This document shows positions 46,089 to 57,821 of a stretch of 64,000 nt of DNA, in pieces. Source of the stretch: Myxococcales bacterium (lineage in GTDB: Bacteria; Myxococcota; Myxococcia; Myxococcales; Anaeromyxobacteraceae). The notes under the pieces are model-generated. The model saw only the letters and a program-made list of their open reading frames with translations, had not been told where the DNA came from and made no database searches. The stretch is taken from assembly GCA_021806645.1 (NCBI GenBank), contig JAJZQX010000001.1, forward strand, positions 124,001-188,000. Direction: 5' to 3'. Each line of letters begins with the position of its first letter. The stretch's first letter is position 1. A program made the position numbers and the translations under genes.

Positions 46089-47528
46089 GTGGAGAGCTTC
46101 GGCAGATACCGGCTCATAAGGCCGCTCGCCTCGGGCGGGATGGCCGAGGTCTGGCGCGCCGAGGTGGACGGGCCGGCCGGGGTGCGCATGGAGGTGGCCC
46201 TCAAGCTGGTGCGCGGCGGGCCGAGCGCCGGCGGTGAGTTCGCCCGGATGCTGGTTGAGGAGGCGCGGCTGGTGGCGCGGCTCCACCACGCCAACGTGGT
46301 CCAGCTGTTCGAGCTGGTGGAGGCGGGTGGCCGGTTCGGGCTGGTGATGGAGCTGGTGCGCGGACGGGACCTCGTGCGGGTGATGGAGCGCTGCCGCGAG
46401 CTGGGCGTCCGGCCCGGCCTGGCTCGCGCCGTCCAGATCGGGGTGGAGGTGGCCAAGGCCCTGGCCTACGCCCACCGGCTCACCGTCGACGGCCGGCCGG
46501 TCGGCCTGGTCCACCGCGACGTCTCGCCCCACAACATCCTCCTCTCCTACGAGGGCGAGGTGAAGCTGGCCGACTTCGGCATCGCCCGGGCCACCAGCCG
46601 GCTCGACCTGACCGATCCCGGCACCGTCAAGGGGAAGCTGGCCTACATGGCGCCGGAGCAGGCGCGCGGTGAGCCGCTCGACGGCCGCGCCGACGTCTTC
46701 GCGCTGGGCGTGGTGCTCTGGGAACTCTGCGCCGGCCGGCGCCTCTTCGCGCGAGAGACCGAGGCGGCCACGCTGGCGGCGGTGCTCGACGGCGCGCCGG
46801 TGGGGCCGCCCTCGGCGTGGAACGAGGCGGTGCCGCGCGCGCTGGACGAGGTGATCCTGGCGGCGCTGGCGCGCGACCCGGCGCGCCGGACCGGATCGGC
46901 GGAGATGCTGCGGGCGGCGCTGGCCGCGCAGTGGATCGAGCTGGCGCGTGACCAGGAGGAGCAGGACCTGCGCGGCCTGATGCAGCGGCTCTGGCCCGAT
47001 GGCGAGCTCCCCACCATGGCCGGCGAGCCGACCGCGCTGCGGCCGACGCCGTCGCCGGCGAGTCGGGCCGGTCGGTCGGAGGATTCGGCGAGCGCCACCG
47101 TGTTGGCGCCGGCCGCTCGCCGGCGGAGGCTGGCGGGCGGGGCGGTGCTGGTCATCGCGGTGCTGTTGGCGGGGTGGGGCTGGCATCGGCTCGCGCAGCG
47201 CCAGGCCGGCGAGGTCACGACCGCGGTGGCCGCCGTCCCGGTGGCCGTGCCTGGGGAGCCGCCCGGCCTGGGCCACGGGCTCTGGTCGCTCGGCGGGACC
47301 GACGCGGCGGCGGCCGGGCAGGGCGAAGGGGTGGTGCGGGTCCACGTCGTCCCATGGGCGGTGGTGAAGGTCGACGGCGTCACCGTCGGCGAGACGCCGC
47401 GGGAGCTGCGGCTGCGCGCCGGGACCCACCGGGTCCGCGTCGAGCACCCGGCGCTCGGCGCCGCCGACCTGGAGCTGGTGGTCGAACCGGGGAGCCGCCA
47501 GCTCTGGCGCCCGGCGCTGAAGCGGTAG
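46089..47528 (+). CDS. Hanks-type Ser/Thr protein kinase with a C-terminal PEGA-like domain
   Basis: A protein of 479 residues from GTG 46089. The kinase domain (about 6-275) is complete: RPLASGGMAEVWRAE glycine loop, VALKLV lysine, catalytic loop HRDVSPHNILL, LADFGIARA, and YMAPEQARGE. HRDVSPHN is typical of myxobacterial kinases. A linker and one membrane span (LAGGAVLVIAVLLAGWGW, about 343-362) follow, then a PEGA-like beta domain (VVPWAVVKVDGVTVGETPRE) outside the membrane. It probably senses an envelope signal. Divergent from two small hypothetical genes. Confidence 0.9.
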   Translation: MESFGRYRLIRPLASGGMAEVWRAEVDGPAGVRMEVALKLVRGGPSAGGEFARMLVEEARLVARLHHANVVQLFELVEAGGRFGLVMELVRGRDLVRVMERCRELGVRPGLARAVQIGVEVAKALAYAHRLTVDGRPVGLVHRDVSPHNILLSYEGEVKLADFGIARATSRLDLTDPGTVKGKLAYMAPEQARGEPLDGRADVFALGVVLWELCAGRRLFARETEAATLAAVLDGAPVGPPSAWNEAVPRALDEVILAALARDPARRTGSAEMLRAALAAQWIELARDQEEQDLRGLMQRLWPDGELPTMAGEPTALRPTPSPASRAGRSEDSASATVLAPAARRRRLAGGAVLVIAVLLAGWGWHRLAQRQAGEVTTAVAAVPVAVPGEPPGLGHGLWSLGGTDAAAAGQGEGVVRVHVVPWAVVKVDGVTVGETPRELRLRAGTHRVRVEHPALGAADLELVVEPGSRQLWRPALKR

Positions 47529-47685
47529 GCCTTCCCTTCACCCCGCCGTCCCCCGGCACCTGACACCGCGACGGCGCGGTCGGTCATCGGCGCGGCGCGC
47601 CCCCGGCCGCGCGCCGGTTCGCCTCCACCTCCACCTACCAAACGCACGCACGCGACCCTGACGGGCCGTGAGGTCCCGTGGCACG

Positions 47686-47732
47686 TTGACGAACTCCACT
47701 GGATCTACTACCTTGGAAATCAAGTTTTCCAA
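47686..47732 (+). promoter_or_regulatory. Candidate promoter and operator of the MerR-like gene
   Basis: TTGACG at 47686-47691 and a weak TACCTT at 47709-47714 are 17 bp apart. Immediately after lies the inverted repeat TTGGAAA (47713-47719) and TTTCCAA (47726-47732) with a 6-bp spacer, in the only clearly AT-rich stretch of the neighbourhood. The spacing suits autoregulation by the DNA-binding protein encoded just downstream. The rest of the 220-bp gap after the kinase gene (47529-47685) shows no gene. Confidence 0.45.
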
Positions 47733-47748
47733 CTTCTATTCTAGATCG

Positions 47749-48297
47749 ATGGATCGAATGGATTTACTGAGCGACGACGAGGTGGCACGACTGGAGCGGG
47801 ACCGCTCGGGCGGGATCACCGCCGGCGAGGTGGTCCGGCTCTTCGAGGCGCGCGGCGCGCGGCTCTCGGCCTCGACGTTCCGCAAGTACGTCCAGCTCGG
47901 GCTCTTGCCGCGCAGCCGGCGGGTGGGACGCAAGGGCAAGCACTCCGGCTCGACCGGGCTCTACCCGGTGGCGGTGGTGCGCCGCATCGCGCTCATCAAG
48001 CGGATGATGGCCGAGGGCTACACGCTCGACGACATCGGCGGCAGCTTCGTTACGGTGCGCAACCGGCTGGAGGACGTGGAGCAGGGGCTGGCCGAACTGG
48101 TGGCGTCCATCGCCGTCAAGGCGCGGTCGCACCCGCGCAAGCGGCAGTTCGAGGCGGAGCTGGGCCGCGCCGAGCGCGAGGCGCGCGCGGTGTTCCGGAG
48201 GCTGGAGAGGGTGGGCGGTGCGGTCGCGACGATCGGGGCGGTGGAGGCCGCCGGATCACGCGGCCCGGGCGCGGGGGCCGCGCTCGTCGGCAGGTGA
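47749..48297 (+). CDS. MerR-type transcriptional regulator
   Basis: About 182 residues from ATG 47749 (ATG 47758 is equally possible; neither has a clear ribosome site). The DNA-binding part is SGGITAGEVVRLFEARG, LSASTFRKYVQLGLLPRSRR, then a wing (KGKHSGSTGLYPVAVVRRI) and ALIKRMMAEGYTLDDI. This is a MerR winged helix placed after a short N-terminal extension. The remaining 90 residues are a helical dimerisation region (LEDVEQGLAELVASIAVKAR). No effector-binding cysteines. Followed after 48 bp by a sigma-4-like protein gene. Confidence 0.8.
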   Translation: MDRMDLLSDDEVARLERDRSGGITAGEVVRLFEARGARLSASTFRKYVQLGLLPRSRRVGRKGKHSGSTGLYPVAVVRRIALIKRMMAEGYTLDDIGGSFVTVRNRLEDVEQGLAELVASIAVKARSHPRKRQFEAELGRAEREARAVFRRLERVGGAVATIGAVEAAGSRGPGAGAALVGR

Positions 48298-48345
48298 CAG
48301 GGGGCGCCGCTGGTGGCGCCACGTTGGTGGACGGAGGGGACGGGG

Positions 48346-48861
48346 ATGAGCGAGGCCAAGCGGAGCCAGGAGTCGGAGGCGGAGGTCGGACCGGAGCGCG
48401 GTGAGGGCGAGGCGCGCCACCGGTCAAAGACCATGTCGCGCAAGGAGATCGCGCGCGACCTGCGTCGGCAGCGCCAGTCCGGGGTGCTGGACCCTGGGCT
48501 GGACGGGGTGATGCGGGAGATCGAGGCCAACCGGCCTCACGCCAGGGCCCAGTGCGCCACCGGGCCGCGCCCGTGCATGTTCATCTCCTGCAAGCACCAC
48601 CTCTACCTGGACGTGAACCCTTCGACCGGGTCGATCAAGCTCAACTTCCCGGACAAGGAGGTCTGGGAGATGGGCGAGACCTGCGCGCTGGACGTCGCCG
48701 ACCGCGGCGGCATCACGCTGGAGGAGGTCGGGGCCATCATGAACCTGACCCGGGAGCGGATCCGCCAGGTCGAGACCCGCGGCTTGCTCAAGCTCAGGGC
48801 CATCTGCGAGGACGAACCTCGCGCCAACGACCCGGTCCTCGGTGGCCGCGACGGGCACTGA
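48346..48861 (+). CDS. Sigma-70 region 4-like DNA-binding protein with a Cys cluster
   Basis: A protein of 171 residues from ATG 48346, with GGAGGGG upstream. The C-terminal part [20 protein letters not shown] followed by ETRGLLKLR is a near-perfect sigma region 4.2 helix-turn-helix, but no regions 2 or 3 are present. Before it lie four cysteines and two histidines ([25 protein letters not shown]) that could bind zinc or an Fe-S cluster. The N-terminus is charged and disordered. It is not a full sigma factor; it may act as an RNA-polymerase-associated regulator. The pair with the upstream MerR-like regulator suggests a shared circuit (inference). Confidence 0.72.
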
Positions 48862-48956
48862 GCGGGGCCGTCCCCCCTAAGGCGGCGCGCCCGCCCGCCG
48901 TCCTTGAATCCCCCGCACGCGGCTGGTAAACGGGGCCTCCTTCCCGGGAGGAATCC

Positions 48957-50531
48957 ATGGTCCGCCGCGCGCTGCTCTCGGTCTCCGACAAGACCGGTCT
49001 CGTCCCCTTCGCGAAGCGCCTCGCCGCCCTCGGCGTCGAGCTGCTCTCCACCGGCGGCACGCAGAGGGCGCTGGCCGACGCCGGCGTGCCGGTCACCTCG
49101 GTGGCCGAATTCACCATGGCCCCGGAGATCCTCGGCGGCCGGGTCAAGACGCTCCACCCTCGGGTTCACGGTGGCATCCTCTACCGGCGCGGGCTGGCCT
49201 CCGACGAGGCCGACGTCACGGCGCGCGACATCCCGCCCATCGACCTGGTGGTGGTGAACCTCTACCCGTTCCGCGAGGCGGTGGCGGCCGGCAAGGCCTT
49301 CGACGAGTGCGTCGAGGAGATCGACATCGGCGGCCCGGCCATGGTCCGCAGCGCCGCCAAGAACTCGGCCCACGTGGGGGTGGTGGTCGACCCGGCCGAC
49401 TACCAGCGCGTGGCCGCCGAGCTGGAGACCGGCCGCGCTCTCACCGGCGCCACCCGCTTCGAGCTGATGAAGAAGGCCTTCGCGCACACCGCCGCCTACG
49501 ACGCCGCCATCAGCGAGTACCTGACCTCGCGCGGCGCCGACGCCGCCGCGCCGCTCCACTTCCCGGGCACGCTGGGCGCGCTCTTCACCAAGGTGCAGGA
49601 CCTCCGCTACGGCGAGAACCCGCACCAGGCCGGCGCCTTCTACCGGGCCGGGCGCGAGCCGGAGGAGCCGACGGTGGCCTGGGCCTCGGTCCTCCAGGGC
49701 AAGGAGCTCAGCTACAACAACCTGCTCGACCTCGAGGCGGCGCTGGCCAACCTGAAGGAGTTCGACGAGACCGCCGTGGTCATCGTCAAGCACAACACCC
49801 CCTGCGGCGTGTCGCTGGGCCAGACCCTGGCCGATGCCTTCGCCCGGGCTCGCGCCTGCGACCCGGTGAGCGCCTTCGGCGGCATCGTGGCGCTCAACCG
49901 CCCGGTGGACGAGGCGGCGGCCCGGCAGCTCACCGACCTCTTCCTCGAGTGCGTCATCGCCCCCGGGTACGACGCCGCGGCGCGGGCGCTGCTCGCCGCC
50001 AAGAAGAACCTGCGGCTGCTCGAGGCGCCGCGGCTCGGCCAGCCACGCGCGTCGTGGCGCCGCCGCCCCGAGGAGCACCGCGAGCTCCGCTCCATCACCG
50101 GCGGCCTGCTGGTGATGGACCGCGACCTCGGCGCGGTCCGGCGCGAGGACTGCATGGTGATGACGAAGCGCGCCCCCACCGAGGCGGAGTGGAAGGACCT
50201 GCTATTCGCCTGGAAGGTGGTGAAGCACGTCAAGTCGAACGCCATCGTCTTCGCCAGCGAGGACCGGACGGTGGCCATCGGCGGCGGCCAGACCAGCCGC
50301 GTCGAGTCGGTCAAGACCGCGGTGATGAAGGCGCAGTTGCCGGTGCGCGGCTCCAGCGTCGGCTCCGACGCCTTCTTCCCGTTCGCCGACGGCGTCGAGG
50401 AGATCGTCAGGGCCGGCGCCACCGCCATCATCCAGCCGGGCGGCTCGATGCGCGACGCCGAGGTGGTGACCGCCGCCGACGCGGCCGGGATCGCCATGGT
50501 GGCGACCGGGATGCGCCACTTCCGGCACTGA
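48957..50531 (+). CDS. purH: Bifunctional AICAR transformylase / IMP cyclohydrolase
   Basis: Last two steps of IMP synthesis. A protein of 524 residues. The N-terminal cyclohydrolase (MGS-like) domain has [30 protein letters not shown] and [17 protein letters not shown]. The transformylase domain has [40 protein letters not shown] (catalytic Lys-His), SNAIVFA, and the terminal [14 protein letters not shown] with [10 protein letters not shown] strong ribosome site (GGGAGGAATCC) precedes the ATG. Other pur genes, purD-purE, lie 6 kb downstream on the same strand. Confidence 0.96.
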
Positions 50532-50602
50532 CGTCCGGCACCACGGGCCGGTGAGGGCCGCCGGCTACGGCTCCAGCTCCATCCGGCCCGCCCCGGGCTC
50601 GC

Positions 50603-51355
50603 TCAGGCATGCGCCGAGGTCGCGCACGGGTCGCCGCTGGAACCCGGCGGGCCGCCAACGGTGGCGAGTCGTGCCCCGGCCGCGGTCGCCGAGTCCTTCG
50701 AGACCTTGCCGTGGCTCAGGGAGATGATTCGCTCGCCGGCACACCCGATCTCCGGGTCATGGGTGACGACCACCAGGGTCTTCCCCTCTCCGTGCAGCGC
50801 GCGGAACAGCTCGAGCACCCGCGCCTCGTTCTCCTCGTCCAGGTTGCCCGTCGGCTCGTCCGCGAGCACGATCTTGGGATCGTTGATGAGCGCCCTCGCG
50901 ATGCAGACCCGCTGCTGCTCCCCGCCCGAGAGCTGGGACGGGAGGTGGTGACCTCGGCCGGCGAGCTGGACGCGCTCCAGCGCCGCCAGCGCCTGCTCGC
51001 GCACCGGCATCGAGTGGTAGTACTGCGCGAGCATCACGTTCTCGACGGCGGTCAGGTACGGGATGAGGTGGAACTGCTGGAACACCAGCCCGATGTTCTC
51101 CCGGCGGAACACCGCCCAGTCGTCGGGGCCGAACCCGTGCGTGTCGGTCCCGAGCACCTGGATCCGTCCACTGGTTGGCTTGTCGAGCCCGTTCAGGATG
51201 CTCAGGAGCGTCGTCTTGCCCGACCCGGAGGGTCCCATGATCGCCACCCATTCGCCCGGCCGGACGTCGATGCTCACGCCGTCGAGCGCGTGCACCCCTC
51301 CAGGATAGATCTTGCTGACACCCTGGACCGATATCGCGTGAGCCGTCACGTTCAC
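50603..51355 (-). CDS. ABC transporter ATPase of the iron locus (LolD/MacB type)
   Basis: A protein of 250 residues. Walker A is GPSGSGKTTLLS, the Q-loop FQQFHLIPYLTAVENV, the signature LSGGEQQRVCIARAL, Walker B IVLADEPTGNLD, and the switch histidine in VVVTHDPEIG. LolD/MacB-type ATPases drive mechanotransmitting FtsX-like permeases, two of which are encoded directly upstream; the ATG overlaps the permease stop by 4 bp. Its C-terminal 25 residues are a Ser/Gly-rich extension. Last gene of the Fur-linked operon. Confidence 0.9.
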   Translation of the reverse strand: MNVTAHAISVQGVSKIYPGGVHALDGVSIDVRPGEWVAIMGPSGSGKTTLLSILNGLDKPTSGRIQVLGTDTHGFGPDDWAVFRRENIGLVFQQFHLIPYLTAVENVMLAQYYHSMPVREQALAALERVQLAGRGHHLPSQLSGGEQQRVCIARALINDPKIVLADEPTGNLDEENEARVLELFRALHGEGKTLVVVTHDPEIGCAGERIISLSHGKVSKDSATAAGARLATVGGPPGSSGDPCATSAHA

Positions 51356-52467
51356 TCTCCCTTCAGGAGCATCGCGGTTTCCATCCGAAGCGCCCGCCGG
51401 GCGCCGATGCTCGCGGCCAGCACGGCGATCACCACGCTCACCACGACCGCAGCGAGGAAGGGCGCGAGGTGGGGAGTCACGGAGACGCCGAACGCCTGGC
51501 GCACGATCACCTGTGACAGGACGGTCCCCGCCGCGTAGCCGAGCAGCGCTCCAGCGACACCGATGGCGGCACCCTCGGACAGCAGCAAGGCGACGACCGA
51601 ATGCCGCTTGGCCCCGAGCGCCTGAAGGAGCGCGAGTTCCTTGCGCCGCTCGATCACGCGGGACAGGACGGCCGCGGTGACGCCGACCGAGCTCAGCAGG
51701 AGGACCGCGAGGAGCGCGACACCGGTCAGGAGGTTGATCTTCCCGATGATGGCCCGCTCCCCGTGCAGGACCTGGCGGAGCGGCGTGAGTTCGATCCCGG
51801 CCCCGGCGGCCGCCAGCGAGGTGTTGAAGGCGGCGATGTCCGGTTCACCGCCCGGGACCGAGACCAGCGCGTAGGTGAAACGCGCCTCTTCGGGCCGCGG
51901 CTTCCGTGACACGAACATCCGGCCCTCGTCCTCGTCGCCCGATTCGAAGATCCCGGTGACTCGGTAGCGCTCGTGGTGCGCCGCGCCATCGAGGCGAACC
52001 TCGACGGTGGCCCCGATCGACGTCCCGAGCACCTGCGCAAGCTTCCGTCCCATGACGCACTCGTCCTGCCCGGCGGCACGCCTGCCGTTGACTCCCCAGT
52101 AAGGTGTCATTCGCGCGAGTCCGGCGGCGTCCGCGGTGACGATCGCCACCGGCGCACCCTGCAGCGTGCCGACCCGGAGGTGGAACTCGACCAGGTCCGC
52201 TCGCTTCGCCTCAGCGAGCCCGTGGGCTCTCTCCCAGGCGGCGGAGTCGGCCGTGACCGGTGCCCCCACGCCGTCGCGCCGCTGCCCGGCGTGAGCGACG
52301 GCGTTGGCGCCGAGGCTCCTCAGGCTGCTGGTCATCTTCTGGCCGACGTCGATGGACATGGCGACGAAGATCGTCGCCAGCGCGGCGGAGGCGGTGAGCG
52401 TCGCCAGCGACCACGCGGTGACCCCGGCGCTCCTCACCAGCGAGTGTCGAATCATGTGGGCGAGCAT
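51352..52467 (-). CDS. FtsX-like ABC permease (second of the pair)
   Basis: A protein of 371 residues from ATG 52467, which has GGAG upstream. One N-terminal span (SLATLTASAALATIFVAMS), a periplasmic domain (about 45-245; MGRKLAQVLGTSIG, YRVTGIFESGDEDEGRMFV), then three C-terminal spans with the FtsX signature VIERRKELALLQALGAKRH. In the Campylobacter p19 locus, homologous permeases are part of an iron uptake system. It overlaps the ATPase gene by 4 bp. Confidence 0.87.
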   Translation of the reverse strand: MLAHMIRHSLVRSAGVTAWSLATLTASAALATIFVAMSIDVGQKMTSSLRSLGANAVAHAGQRRDGVGAPVTADSAAWERAHGLAEAKRADLVEFHLRVGTLQGAPVAIVTADAAGLARMTPYWGVNGRRAAGQDECVMGRKLAQVLGTSIGATVEVRLDGAAHHERYRVTGIFESGDEDEGRMFVSRKPRPEEARFTYALVSVPGGEPDIAAFNTSLAAAGAGIELTPLRQVLHGERAIIGKINLLTGVALLAVLLLSSVGVTAAVLSRVIERRKELALLQALGAKRHSVVALLLSEGAAIGVAGALLGYAAGTVLSQVIVRQAFGVSVTPHLAPFLAAVVVSVVIAVLAASIGARRALRMETAMLLKGE

Positions 52468-52513
52468 CGGTTCTCCAGGTGGGGCGGTTTCGCCGGGCGT
52501 GCCATCGGGTCCA

Positions 52514-53788
52514 CTAGCCTCCGTGCAGGACCTGGGCGGCGTCCTGGTTGACCGCCTTCCACACCGGCCAGAACCCACCTGCCCAGGCCAGGCCGAGCCC
52601 CAGGAAGGGAGCGATCAGGACCACGGCGAGATGAACGTCCGCCGTGCTCCCGAAGACGACCGACACCAGCCAGCGCCCGAGCAGCGGCCCGGTGAAGGCG
52701 GCCAGGACGCCGCCGGCCACCCCGAGGATCGCCATCTCGGCCAGGAACAGCACCAGCACGTCCGCCCGGCGCGCGCCGATGGCCTGCAGCAGGGCCATCT
52801 CCGGCCGGCGCTCCAGGACGGCGGCCGCCAGGATTCCCGTCACGCTGAGGCCGCACACGACGAGGGTCACCGCGGCCAGGAGCGCCATCAGCCCCTTGGT
52901 CCGCGAGAAGACCATGCCTTGAGTCTCGGAGACCCTGCGGACGACCCGGGCCGCGGAGCCTGGGATCAGGTCCTGAACCTGCTTCGCCACCGCGCCGGGG
53001 TACGGCGTGCAGTACCAGCGATCGTATTCGTCGGGCGTGAGCGACCTGGGGTCCTGGCGGTACTTCTCGGCGAGCTTGTTCTCCGGCGTGGTGAGCGCGC
53101 TCACGTCGGCGCTCGACACCTTCCCCGGGGCGCCGACCAGGCCCTGCACGGTCGAGAGCGGCGCGATGACGGCGCCGTCGTCCCCGTCGCCGGAGGTGAC
53201 CACCCCGGCCACCGAGAGCGCGACCTCCCCGCGCCCGGCCACCAGGGTGAGCGTGTCACCGGGCGAGAGCGCGAGCTTCCGCGCCACCGCGCTCCCGACC
53301 AGGCACTGATCGGCACGGGTCGGCCACGCGCCCTGGACGGACCAGTGCGAGTAGACCTGCCGGGCGCCCGTGACCAGCGGCTCGCTCCCCGTCGTGATCG
53401 GCACGTCGAACCAGACCCCGACGAGGGGCACGACCTGGCCCTTGACGAGCCCACTGGCCCGGAGCCGGGGCGCGACGCCGAGGATGTTGTTCCGCCAGAA
53501 GAAGGTGATCGCCTTCAGCTTGGGGAGCTCGGCCTCGTCGAAGTACGAAGGGACGGTCTGGGGCGCCAGCCGGTGGCCGCCCACCTGGACCGGGATGGCC
53601 GACGCGAGCGGTTCGACCGTGATGTTGGCGCCGAAGGAGCGGAGTTCGAGGTTCATCTTGTCGCCGACGTCGACGCTGAGCGAGAGCAGCGCGAGGACCA
53701 GGGTGAGCCCGATCCAGACGGCCAGGACCGAGAGCGCCTTGCGGGAGAGGCGGCGGCCGAGAGAGTCGAGCAGCATTCGGGACAGCAT
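52514..53788 (-). CDS. FtsX-like ABC permease (first of the pair)
   Basis: A protein of 424 residues from ATG 53788, preceded by GGGGAGG. It has the same build as the next gene: one N-terminal span (LSVLAVWIGLTLVLALLSL), a larger periplasmic domain (about 45-290), and three C-terminal spans with VLERRPEMALLQAIGARRAD. The start DVGDKMNLELRSFGANI resembles DVGQKMTSSLRSLGANA in the next permease, so the two are ancient duplicates and likely a heterodimer. It lies 20 bp after the FTR1 fusion gene. Confidence 0.87.
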   Translation of the reverse strand: MLSRMLLDSLGRRLSRKALSVLAVWIGLTLVLALLSLSVDVGDKMNLELRSFGANITVEPLASAIPVQVGGHRLAPQTVPSYFDEAELPKLKAITFFWRNNILGVAPRLRASGLVKGQVVPLVGVWFDVPITTGSEPLVTGARQVYSHWSVQGAWPTRADQCLVGSAVARKLALSPGDTLTLVAGRGEVALSVAGVVTSGDGDDGAVIAPLSTVQGLVGAPGKVSSADVSALTTPENKLAEKYRQDPRSLTPDEYDRWYCTPYPGAVAKQVQDLIPGSAARVVRRVSETQGMVFSRTKGLMALLAAVTLVVCGLSVTGILAAAVLERRPEMALLQAIGARRADVLVLFLAEMAILGVAGGVLAAFTGPLLGRWLVSVVFGSTADVHLAVVLIAPFLGLGLAWAGGFWPVWKAVNQDAAQVLHGG

Positions 53789-53808
53789 CGGCAGGTCCTC
53801 CCCGGTTG

Positions 53809-55248
53809 CTATTTCGCGAACCTGGCCGGGTCCTGCTTGAACAGCTCGTGACACCTGCTGCCCGGCATCTTGCAGAAGTAGAAGGTCTTCCCCTGGTACG
53901 TCTCGAAGGCGCTGGCCTCGGCCATGGGAACCCTCATCCCGCACACGGGATCGACGGCGACCATTTCCTGCTCGTTGCCCGCGAACCGATGCGCCTCCTT
54001 CTCCAGGTCGCTGGCGGCGACCCGGACGGCCGAGCCCTGGACGGACGAGTGCAGCGGGATCGGGTTGCAGCCGCCCTTGTGACCCAGGGTCAGGGGGTTG
54101 ATCTCGGCTCCGCAGTTCAGGCACACCAGGTTTCCGCTCCGCTCGTCCTGGACGTAGCCGAACGCGCCGCACATCTCGCAGGCGTCCACCGCCGTCCGGT
54201 ACTTCCCGTCCGCGGTCTTCATGGCCAGGAACCGGACCGTGTGGCCTTCCATGACGACGCCGAAGCGCTTGAGCTTCCCGGTGTCCAGGTCGTGCAGGGG
54301 GACCACCAGGTCGCCACCTTCTCTCGCGACCGGCTCGGGCGCGGGGACCTCCTTGGGGATGGCTTCCATCGCGTACACGATGCCGACCGGGACGAGCACC
54401 AGCAGCGAGCTCACGACCGCACCGCGACGGTAGAGCCTCTCGCGCTTCGCCCGTGCCATGGCGAGCCGCGCCTCCACCTCCGACGCGGCCGCCGCCGGTA
54501 CGCCCGGGTCACGCCTCCTGGTGAGCCAGACGAGGAGGGGGATGGCGACCAGCGCGATGACGAACAGCGTGTTGTTCCGGACGATCGGTCCGACCAGGGC
54601 CATCGAGCGCGGCGTCGCCGGCAGTAGCCCGATCTCGGAGAACTCGTGGTAGCCGTTCACCAGGAGTTGCACCACGAAGATGGCTAGCACCGCCTCCGTC
54701 ACCGCGAAGAAGCGGCGCAGGTCCACCCTGACGCTTCCCTTCACGAACATGATCCCGAAGGCGATCGAGGCGGCGAGACCGAGCACGGTCCCGATGAAGG
54801 CGAGCATCGCCTCGGTGGTCAGGTTGACCGCGGCGAGGAACATCACGGCCTCGGCGCCCTCGCGGAACAGCATCAGGAAGGCGAAGGCCCCGAGGCCCCA
54901 GGCTTCCTTCCGGCTCCCGCCGGGCAAGGTGGCCTCGGCGGCGCTCGAGACCCGGTCCTCGATCGAGCCCCGGAGCGTCCTCGAGTTCCGGTGCATCCAC
55001 CAGAGCATCGAGACGACGAACGCGGCCGAGACGAAGTAGAGGACGCCCTCGTAGATCTCCTCCTGCACCGGGACCAGGCTCAGGGCCACGGCCGCGGCGA
55101 TGCTGGCGAGGACCGCCAGGGCCAGCCCGATCCAGACGGGACGGACCAGGTCCTTCCGGTGGGTCCGCTCGAGCGCGACCAGGATGATTCCGATGACGAG
55201 CGCGGCCTCCACGCCCTCACGCAGCATGATCACGAATGACTGGAACAT
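53809..55248 (-). CDS. FTR1-type iron permease fused to DUF2318 and YHS domains
   Basis: A 479-residue inner-membrane protein from ATG 55248 (GAGGAG upstream). Residues 1 to about 240 are an FTR1 permease with seven or so spans and both REXXE iron motifs: MLREGVEAAL and LFREGAEAVM. After a further span (VVSSLLVLVPVGIVYAM) the periplasmic part is a DUF2318 Fe-S-like domain: VDACEMCGAFGY, LVCLNCGAEINP, HKGGCNPIPL. The last 50 residues are a YHS domain: VDPVCGMRVPM and FYFCKMPGSRCHELF. FTR1 permeases import iron, usually after oxidation or chelation. The DUF2318 and YHS parts probably handle metal at the periplasmic face. Confidence 0.9.
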   Translation of the reverse strand: MFQSFVIMLREGVEAALVIGIILVALERTHRKDLVRPVWIGLALAVLASIAAAVALSLVPVQEEIYEGVLYFVSAAFVVSMLWWMHRNSRTLRGSIEDRVSSAAEATLPGGSRKEAWGLGAFAFLMLFREGAEAVMFLAAVNLTTEAMLAFIGTVLGLAASIAFGIMFVKGSVRVDLRRFFAVTEAVLAIFVVQLLVNGYHEFSEIGLLPATPRSMALVGPIVRNNTLFVIALVAIPLLVWLTRRRDPGVPAAAASEVEARLAMARAKRERLYRRGAVVSSLLVLVPVGIVYAMEAIPKEVPAPEPVAREGGDLVVPLHDLDTGKLKRFGVVMEGHTVRFLAMKTADGKYRTAVDACEMCGAFGYVQDERSGNLVCLNCGAEINPLTLGHKGGCNPIPLHSSVQGSAVRVAASDLEKEAHRFAGNEQEMVAVDPVCGMRVPMAEASAFETYQGKTFYFCKMPGSRCHELFKQDPARFAK

Positions 55249-55326
55249 GGCATCTCCTCGAGCTCTCGCTTCGTGCACCGTGGTAGGGGGTTGCTGAGAC
55301 CTGGGCTCAACACGGAGCCCGCTTCC

Positions 55327-56193
55327 TCACAGGTTGGACAGGGCGGGCTCCCCCTCGATGGTCGTCCGCCGCTGCTCCGTCGGGCCGGCCATGCGGAACG
55401 GATGCTCGAAGCTCAGGTAGAGGAAGATGGCCTTCTCGCCACGGCTCGGCCCGACCCCGAGCGGCACGCTCAGGCCCGGCACGATCTGGAGGCCGCTGGC
55501 GAGGTTGATGGCGCCGCGTACGCCGGGGTTGACCGTGAGCGTCTCCGACCGCCGAGCTCCGCCCGGAAGCGCCAGGTCGGTCCGCGTGTAAAGCCACTCG
55601 ACCAGGAGGTTGAAGTTCGAGTGCGCGAGGAACATGAGGCTGTCACCGGCGGCGAACGTGGTCGAGGTCCCGCTCACGCCGCTGACGTCCCGCGCCGAGG
55701 GGACGTAGGTGACGCCGGCGTTCACGTGGGTCACGAGCCAGCTCGTGAGCTCGAGGCTGAGGGGCAGGTTCACCTGCACGCCGGCACCGCCGGCGCCCAG
55801 CCCGCGGTAGGCGTCCCCGGTCGGGAGGAGGACCGTCAGGCGCGGCGCGAAGGCGACGCGGTCCTCGCCGCTCCCGATCGCCTGCAGGCGGTAGTTGAGG
55901 GCGAGGTCGCCGAGGCCCGCCTCGCCCCTCGCGGCCCCGCTGGCCGTGAACGTGACGCTGGCCTGGTTCCGCTGGCCGAGCACCGGCCACTCCTCGGTGA
56001 AGGAGCTGCCCCATGCCCCGCTGCGCGTCCGGGCCAAGGTCCCGATGTGCTGGATGACCCCCGCCTCCTGGTTGTAGGCCTCCTCGATGAGGAAGCTGTT
56101 GTCCTGGATCGGACCGTAGCCGGCACGGGCGACGGCGGGTGATCCGGCGAGGGCGGCGGCGAGGAGGGCGGCGAGGCGAAGCGATCGGGACAT
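55327..56193 (-). CDS. Exported beta-barrel-like protein, first gene of the iron operon
   Basis: A protein of 288 residues from ATG 56193 (GGAG 8 bp upstream); longer in-frame starts upstream run through the promoter. Signal peptide RLAALLAAALAGSPAVARA. The mature part alternates amphipathic strands (EAGLGDLALNYRLQAI, RVAFAPRLTVLLPTGD, VQVNLPLSLELTSWLV, LNVNPGVRG-type turns), as in the MetA-pathway phenol-degradation family of outer-membrane proteins. It may be the outer-membrane or periplasmic partner of the FTR1 system; its exact role is unknown. It lies 78 bp before the FTR1 fusion. Confidence 0.75.
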   Translation of the reverse strand: MSRSLRLAALLAAALAGSPAVARAGYGPIQDNSFLIEEAYNQEAGVIQHIGTLARTRSGAWGSSFTEEWPVLGQRNQASVTFTASGAARGEAGLGDLALNYRLQAIGSGEDRVAFAPRLTVLLPTGDAYRGLGAGGAGVQVNLPLSLELTSWLVTHVNAGVTYVPSARDVSGVSGTSTTFAAGDSLMFLAHSNFNLLVEWLYTRTDLALPGGARRSETLTVNPGVRGAINLASGLQIVPGLSVPLGVGPSRGEKAIFLYLSFEHPFRMAGPTEQRRTTIEGEPALSNL

Positions 56194-56316
56194 GGAGTTG
56201 ACTCCGGCGGGCGGGAGTTCGGCCGAGGGGCTCGAGGTCGGCCCGTGGCGTGTTGGCGAGGTCGAATCCGACGGGCTGGAGCGAGATGGCTCAGGGCTCG
56301 AGGACCGCGGTTCCGT

Positions 56317-56336
56317 GAAGGTGCGAATCATTATCA
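56317..56336 (-). promoter_or_regulatory. Candidate Fur box
   Basis: On the minus strand TGATAATGATTCGCA (56336-56322) matches the 7-1-7 Fur consensus TGATAAT-G-ATTATCA at 13 of 15 positions. It lies just downstream of a good promoter and about 125 bp before the first iron-operon start. This is the expected position for iron-dependent repression. Confidence 0.75.
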
Positions 56337-56348
56337 ACATGGCGCCAG

Positions 56349-56377
56349 AAGATACTGGGTCTCAGTGAGCCGGTCAA
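56349..56377 (-). promoter_or_regulatory. Sigma-70-type promoter of the iron operon
   Basis: On the minus strand TTGACC (56377-56372) and TATCTT (56354-56349) are separated by 17 bp. The predicted start (about 56342) lies immediately before the Fur box. The rest of the 365-bp gap between the iron operon and purD (56378-56558) shows no gene or clear purD promoter. Confidence 0.6.
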
Positions 56378-56558
56378 CGGACCATGAGTGCCAGTTGCTT
56401 GAGTTGGGGCAAGACAGCAACACCCGGCATGACGTGGATCAAGCCAAGCTGCCCTGCCAGCGGTGGGAGCGCCTTAGCTTGCGCGGTGCGACGACCTGGA
56501 GTTCTCGTGGTTTGTGGTGGCGCTCCGCCGCCCGCGAATGGGGTAAGTTGCGGCCCGC

Positions 56559-57821
56559 ATGCGCGTCCTCGTCGTGGGATCTGGCGGCCGTGAGCACGCC
56601 CTCGCCTGGAAGATTGCCCAGTCCCCGCTGGTCCGCGCCCTCTTCGCGGCGCCCGGCAACCCCGGCCTCGGCCGGCTCGCCACCCTGGTCCCGCTCAAGG
56701 CCGGCGACGTCGAGGGGCTGACCGCCTTCGCGGTCCGCGAGCGGATCGACTTCGTGGTGATCGGTCCCGAGGCCCCCCTGGTGGCCGGCCTGGTGGACCG
56801 GCTCGCCGCCGCCGGCATCCTCGCCTTCGGCCCCACCGCCGGCGCCGCCCGCATCGAGGGTTCCAAGGCCTTCGCCAAGGAGGTGATGATCGCGGCCGGA
56901 ATTCCGACCGCCGCCTTCGCCACCTTCACCGAGCCGAAGGGCGCGCTGGCCTGGGCGGCTTCGCGGGGCGGGCAGGTGGTGGTCAAGGCCGACGGCCTCG
57001 CCGCCGGCAAGGGGGTGGTGGTCTGTGGCGGGATCGAGGAGGCCAAGGTGGCCATCCGCGAGATCCTGGTGGAGCGGGTCCACGGCGCGGCCGGCGCCAC
57101 CCTGCTGCTCGAGGAGAAGCTGGCCGGCCCGGAGGCCAGTTGCATCGCCTTCACCGACGGCGTCCGGGTGCGGATGCTGCCCGCGGCGCAGGACCACAAG
57201 CGGATCTTCGACGGTGACCGCGGCCCCAACACCGGCGGCATGGGGGCCTTCTGCCCCACGCCCAAGGTTCAGGCGGCGCTGCTCGCCGAGATCGAGCGGA
57301 CCGTGCTGCTGCCGGCGGTGAGGGAGCTGGCGCGGCGCGGCCACCCCTTCCGCGGCGCCCTCTACGCAGGGCTGATGCTGACGCCCGACGGCCCGCGCGT
57401 GCTCGAGTTCAACGCCCGCCTCGGCGATCCGGAGACGCAGCCCATCCTGATGCGGCTGCGCGGCGATCTCGTCCCGGCGTTGCTGGCCGTGGCCCGCGGC
57501 GACCTCACCGCGGTCACGCTCGACGTCGACTCGCGCGCCTCGGTCGGCGTGGTGCTGGCTGCCGAGGGCTACCCGGGCAAGGTCACCACCGGCGACGTCA
57601 TCGCCGGCCTCGACGCCACGCTCGGTGCCGACCAGCAGCTCTTCCAGGCCGGCACGGCCAGCGGCCCGGGCGGCCAGGTGGTCACCGCCGGCGGCCGCGT
57701 GCTCACCGTCTGCGCGCTCGGCGCCACGCACGCCGAGGCCATGGAGCGGGCCTACGACGCGGTGGGGAAGGTCTCGTTCCGCGGCATGCAGTACCGCACC
57801 GACATAGGGGGCAGCGCATGA
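56559..57821 (+). CDS. purD: Phosphoribosylamine-glycine ligase (GAR synthetase)
   Basis: Second step of purine synthesis, joining glycine to phosphoribosylamine with ATP. A protein of 420 residues. VLVVGSGGREHALAWKI, FVVIGPEAPLVAGLVD, GSKAFAKEVM, VVVKADGLAAGKGVVV (ATP-grasp), LPAAQDHKRIFDGDRGPNTG, LEFNARLGDPETQ are the family motifs. It overlaps purE by 4 bp. Confidence 0.96.
   Translation: MRVLVVGSGGREHALAWKIAQSPLVRALFAAPGNPGLGRLATLVPLKAGDVEGLTAFAVRERIDFVVIGPEAPLVAGLVDRLAAAGILAFGPTAGAARIEGSKAFAKEVMIAAGIPTAAFATFTEPKGALAWAASRGGQVVVKADGLAAGKGVVVCGGIEEAKVAIREILVERVHGAAGATLLLEEKLAGPEASCIAFTDGVRVRMLPAAQDHKRIFDGDRGPNTGGMGAFCPTPKVQAALLAEIERTVLLPAVRELARRGHPFRGALYAGLMLTPDGPRVLEFNARLGDPETQPILMRLRGDLVPALLAVARGDLTAVTLDVDSRASVGVVLAAEGYPGKVTTGDVIAGLDATLGADQQLFQAGTASGPGGQVVTAGGRVLTVCALGATHAEAMERAYDAVGKVSFRGMQYRTDIGGSA

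Follow-up and report, generated by a model that had tools for sequence, protein, structure and literature searches.

How is the iron-transporter-like gene group that sits between purH and purD controlled, and what does its promoter owe to the genes behind it? We examined this question in a bacterial genome stretch of 64,000 nucleotides, hereafter the window, in which the segment 56317-56377 is very probably a Fur-repressed promoter of a minus-strand OMP-FTR1/FtrD/YHS-FtsX-FtsX-ATPase group, a reading that rests on sequence comparison. The promoter is ordinary in kind, with a conserved architecture, and represents a known type of iron switch; the more interesting point is that one promoter block appears to serve feo in another genus and fet here.

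The first gene of the group (55327..56193, minus strand), whose homologues occur near feoB in relatives, encodes a putative outer-membrane protein (OMP), named by our own reading, with a start that looks by eye like a signal peptide; it has no match in Pfam or NCBIfam, and its single-sequence structure model (pLDDT 32) was useless. The gene is followed on the same strand by one for a FetA-like protein of 479 aa (53809..55248), in which Pfam places an FTR1 permease (REGVE, REGAE), an FtrD-like/DUF2318 domain with two CxxC motifs and a YHS domain, by two FtsX/MacB-type permeases, FetB-like (52514..53788) and FetC-like (51352..52467, both Pfam FtsX), and by a FetD-like ABC ATPase (50603..51355, Pfam ABC_tran). 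The set of FetA (DUF2318 and YHS), FetB, FetC and FetD is present by these Pfam domains, while none of the operon's genes encodes a FetE/FetF thioredoxin and P19 (PF10634) has no match in the genome, which is 98.99% complete. We infer that the group is transcribed as a single operon and that its cargo is iron. Both neighbours, purH on the left (48957..50531, plus strand, an ORF reading) and the divergent purD on the right (56559..57821, plus strand), lie outside the operon, and Rfam models gave no match across 46500-57000.

The promoter elements can be read directly from the minus strand: a -35 hexamer TTGACC (56377-56372) and a -10 hexamer TATCTT (56354-56349) are separated by a spacer of 17 nt. 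This is the arrangement proposed in an earlier sequence-only reading, and it is the sole sigma70-type match in 50400-57800, where shuffles average 0.2. From the usual spacing, transcription is predicted to start at about 56342. The same reading had described a rare AT-rich island here, which was confirmed as rare and is not unique in the window: GC content is 0.53 over 100 bp from 56317 compared with 0.73 overall, two islands of such low GC exist at the 100-bp scale (the other at 47646), and at the 61-bp scale the promoter island is one of six that are comparably low. The lowest-GC island of the window, at 47690-47755, holds an inverted repeat (TTGGAAA...TTTTCCAA) directly before a putative MerR-type regulator gene (ORF reading), and is perhaps an autoregulatory site.

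The main Fur box, TGATAATGATTCGCA (56322..56336, minus strand), lies at about +7 to +21 if the start is near 56342, in keeping with its proposed position directly downstream of the predicted start. The claimed match to the 7-1-7 Fur consensus TGATAATNATTATCA also stands, with agreement at 12 of 14 fixed positions (13/15 counting N). In the whole genome (4,140,991 bases, 33 contigs) five places have three or fewer mismatches to TGATAATNATTATCA, compared with none in the reversed control, and 56336-56322 alone has two, making it the best 7-1-7 match of the genome. A relaxed 15-bp Fur pattern was unfit as a test, as it gave 43 matches versus 21 in the reversed control.

When 200 bases around the module were searched with blastn against 984 kb of loci, a conserved promoter block (56322..56402, minus strand) was found; its 81 nt are 81.5% identical to the promoter before a feo/OMP group in G020, a genome of a different genus within the bacterial family. 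The best core of the block, 56322-56383, extends over 62 ungapped nt at 87.1% identity (E 1.6e-10). The block holds the -35, the spacer, the -10 and the box, and it ends at the box's last base; ungapped identity drops to 55% in the 60 nt upstream of 56383 and to 46% past the downstream end of the box. Retained in G020 are TTGAyC (TTGATC there), CACTGAGACC, TATCkT (TATCGT there) and an identical TGATAATGATTCGCA. The block of a second genome of that genus (G015) was not among the blastn matches; its conservation rests on a MAFFT alignment, which shows a changed -35 (TGGATC), TATCGT and, with one change in the box, TGAGAATGATTCGCA, and on 35 matching positions in the right-hand 46 nt, where G020 has 39. 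Conservation of the operator was thus found in two genomes, G020 and G015. In both, the block is followed on one strand by genes for a barrel-like protein (260-266 aa, by eye), FeoA, FeoB (these two confirmed by Pfam in G020) and an OMP homologue, the last being 68% identical to the window's first gene. Since the block there precedes feo, its link to ferrous-iron genes does not depend on the FTR1 cluster, and we regard this cross-genus footprint as the decisive evidence for the predicted Fur promoter. Apart from the block, the window's OMP gene and the first gene of the G020 group match over 37 nt (84%, E 2.3e-5) in their signal-peptide-like coding parts, which may reflect similar composition or a common signal sequence.

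A Fur motif of the bacterial family provided a second line of evidence. The genome has two Fur-family genes (PF01475 matches, on contigs C29 and C18), of which the C29 fur gene is followed by feoB and has its own Fur box. Matches to the C29 Fur at E<=1e-20 occur in 21 of the 24 genomes of the family, this one included, and the best locus of each carries a 21-bp Fur-like box that agrees with the classical box at 15 to 19 of 21 positions and ends 2 nt before an ATG in 20 of the 21 loci, overlapping it by one base in the remaining one. At 20 of these 21 loci, TTGC (TTGT in four) precedes the GATAnT of the box by about 21 nt; the conserved fur-locus promoter must have a very short leader. The fur promoters of 20 relatives, with the genome under study left out, supplied 15 distinct boxes, from which we built a matrix. 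The 21-bp site 56316-56336 scores 20.4, the top score of the window, followed within the 64 kb by an overlapping register (9.1) and the next independent sites (5.5), and the maximum in a 400-kb sample of the genome is 13.1. The right-hand extension that lifts the site to 20.4 is not conserved, the corresponding sites scoring 16.8 in G020 and 12.5 in G015, and the 15-bp box is therefore the safer unit. The present site shares the half-site TGATAATGA or close forms with the fur promoters of the family, which have a 21-bp box near the ATG, whereas the promoter here combines a 15-bp box with a weaker element across the -10, and its leader is long. Taken with the conservation of the block before feo elsewhere, the choice of this site by the relatives' matrix supports the earlier proposal that the FTR1/FtsX cluster is linked to iron control.

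Of the other iron genes in this genome, fur-feoB (29.8), feoB2 (35.6) and a second copy of fet (36.9) carry strong boxes. The feoB2 locus (L010 1849-4336, G000:C8:184315-184335) encodes a small Cys-containing protein and then a second FeoB, and its 21-bp Fur box ends directly at the ATG. The second fetABCD copy, on contig C8, is complete (L010 13359-13379 and 13875-18451; G000:C8:193358 onward), its four genes being 80, 86, 78 and 90% identical to those of the first, and is preceded by a 21-bp Fur box (18/21 versus classical) and, in place of the OMP, a gene for a small Cys-containing secreted-type protein that resembles the one at the feoB2 locus. A search of the genome with the fused FTR1 protein at E<=1e-20 returned only these two fused copies. 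The likeness between the promoters of the two copies was equalled in 15 of 2000 shuffles and is suggestive only; comparison of the copy-1 promoter with those of feoB2 (129/2000) and fur (500/2000) gave no signal.

Could a different regulator act at this site? Another Fur-family protein, such as the C18 paralogue, or another metal or peroxide signal might control the operon, which would then not be iron-repressed. The genome has two Fur-family genes, and the C18 product might be the one that binds. Homologues of the first gene bear on the question from both sides. OMP homologues occupy 18 loci in 15 of 195 genomes of the phylum, and wider stretches were examined for 15 of the 16 that lie in other genomes (G001 was left out). 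In favour of the iron reading, FeoB is found on seven of these (G021, G012, G020, G015, G165, one of two in G192, and G166), and three of the stretches lacking it are contigs under 5 kb. Fur-matrix matches of at least 19 within 400 bp upstream occur at five of the 18 loci, namely the present one, G021, G009, G014 and G166 (41.8), those in G009 and G014 lying 368 bp from the OMP gene, where they may serve a divergent gene; the other 13 have no such match in 400 bp upstream (for one, the sequence available was 142 bp). The G021 genes run OMP-FeoA-FeoA-FeoB and are accompanied by a divergent Fur-family gene, and an additional Fur-family gene adjoins the OMP/feo locus both there (L127 6895-8659) and in G012 (L128 5963-7620). 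Moreover, an OMP paralogue in the same genome (L124, C8:283201), 54-55% identical, heads an apparent RND metal-efflux operon, and for this reason the OMP alone is no proof of iron. Against control by another protein or signal, the matrix that fits the site comes from promoters of C29-type fur genes, in G020 and G015 it is feo genes that follow the conserved module, and the strongest boxes of the genome stand before fur-feoB, feoB2 and the second fet copy. We consider such control improbable, and iron-dependent repression by Fur is retained as the preferred reading.

Another putative outer-membrane protein (C25) also heads an apparent RND metal-efflux operon; the operons of the paralogue and of this protein lie at L085 4024-12001 and L087 4106-10001. 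The relaxed pattern matched near both efflux operons, at C8:283126 (matrix score -2.9) and on C25, where the matches are weak and one lies inside an open frame; none is claimed as a Fur site, and these weak Fur-like sites are probably due to chance.

A promoter that is real by itself, with Fur-like letters arising by chance in an AT-rich promoter of a GC-rich genome, is less probable still. The site does lie inside one of the two 100-bp islands of the lowest GC class, and the right half of the main box is poor and degenerate (ATTCGCA). However, a score of 20.4 was reached at none of 39.8 million Markov positions; in the first 60 shuffles (3.84 million positions) one site reached 22.6, and the chance of 20.4 in a 131-bp stretch of local composition is 4.75e-5. 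In addition, another genus has the very same 15-mer, which lies downstream of the -10, but differs in the bases immediately after it. Least probable of all is translation from the ATG at 56340-56338, which would put the box inside the opening codons of a longer OMP and make its conservation a matter of coding constraint, for although the OMP frame is open to 56340, this ATG is AAG in G020, the signal-peptide-like sequence begins by eye at 56193, and the gene behind the block in G020 is a different one.

A second Fur-like element, TGAGACCCAGTATCT (56350..56364, minus strand), overlaps the spacer and the -10. It keeps TGAGACCnnGTATC in G020 and G015, with TGAGACC..GTATC retained in both. By the matrix it is weak, as a score of 5.5 by itself should turn up some 33 times in a genome and is reached in 2% of local shuffles. 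Close forms of the element form the core of the feoB2 and second-fet boxes, and a pattern whose three exact matches all lie upstream of iron-transport genes was derived from those very sites, so that such a count is circular. The element could be another point of contact for Fur, or no more than a part of the promoter. Both it and the cross-genus conservation of the block are points that the sequence-only reading missed.

We propose that, with enough ferrous iron, Fe-Fur would bind TGATAATGATTCGCA just past the start, possibly together with the weaker element that overlaps the -10, and block transcription; as iron falls, Fur would be released and the importer made.

The setting of the locus suggests how the importer may have arrived. 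Among relatives whose purD has at least 1.3 kb of sequence before it, 15 of 19 have purH no more than 1.5 kb upstream (three further purD loci are too short to judge); in the present genome the iron operon sits between the two genes. In the nearest relative (G002, purD 88%) similarity starts at 56532, with a different gene upstream. The FTR1 model at E<=1e-30 matches in one of 195 genomes of the phylum, the present one, and together with the insertion between the pur genes this makes it likely that the fet cassette was acquired. The FtrD domain at E<=0.001 is found in three of the 195, in two of them over the cut-off, and none of the other 194 genomes holds a close relative of the cassette, the only related group being a divergent FtrD/FtsX/ABC cluster in G021 (L084 2664-7619; part of FetA 31%, FetB 39%, FetD 49%), whose 14-kb stretch has no matrix match over 5.5. 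Two scans of genome contigs returned no relatives of the FTR1 protein, and tblastn against plasmids returned one record, EfeU, with 34% identity over 44% of the query; no donor was found in these searches. The importer behind the promoter is Feo in one genus and Fet in the other, whereas the promoter itself seems to have been retained. Tentatively, and with more doubt than confidence, we suggest that the Fur promoter and the outer-membrane partner form a unit in this bacterial family, behind which the inner-membrane Feo system was here replaced by fetABCD, with FTR1 and FetA fused and P19 absent. An importer acquired behind such a fixed switch would have come under iron control at once, and the second element and the main box would together make a two-operator switch. 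If true, this would be a clear case of an acquired transporter entering an existing regulon via its promoter.

Overall, these data would place an otherwise putative FTR1/FtrD/FtsX cluster in the Fur regulon with support beyond a consensus match, yield a Fur motif specific to the family that can serve in annotation, and suggest that a putative outer-membrane protein, so far uncharacterised, is a partner in iron import by both Feo and Fet. Among the matches listed in literature searches on Anaeromyxobacter and Myxococcus Fur boxes, on FetM, FTR1, FtsX and P19, on DUF2318 with FTR1 or YHS, and on FeoB with porins, no title or abstract opening describes this promoter.

Previous work on metal-reducing delta-proteobacteria proposed Fur-controlled putative porins in Geobacter and Desulfuromonas, one of them followed by feoAB (PMC545781). 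The Fur regulons described there resemble the present case in combining a Fur box, feo and a putative porin, and tandem or overlapping boxes occur among them; the consensus given there is WTGAAAATNATTTTCAW and the porins named are psp and OprB-like (PMC545781), while the consensus here is TGATAMTGAGAATCGTTATCA-like. The closest counterpart of the gene group is fetMP-fetABCDEF of Campylobacter jejuni, which lies downstream of a Fur box and is reported to rise on iron restriction and on fur deletion, its FetA being predicted to have 8 TM together with DUF2318 and YHS (PMC6083913, PMC10783030). Compared by domain content and gene order, both groups contain a DUF2318 and YHS membrane protein, two ABC permeases and an ATPase in the same order, and both have a Fur box between the transcript start (putative there, predicted here) and the start codon. 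Unlike the C. jejuni system, the present group has no P19 and no separate FetM was seen in the search with the fused protein, a strong FTR1 match with two REGxE motifs lying instead inside the FetA-like protein; a putative outer-membrane protein comes first, and the leader is about 150 nt long here compared with 54 there.
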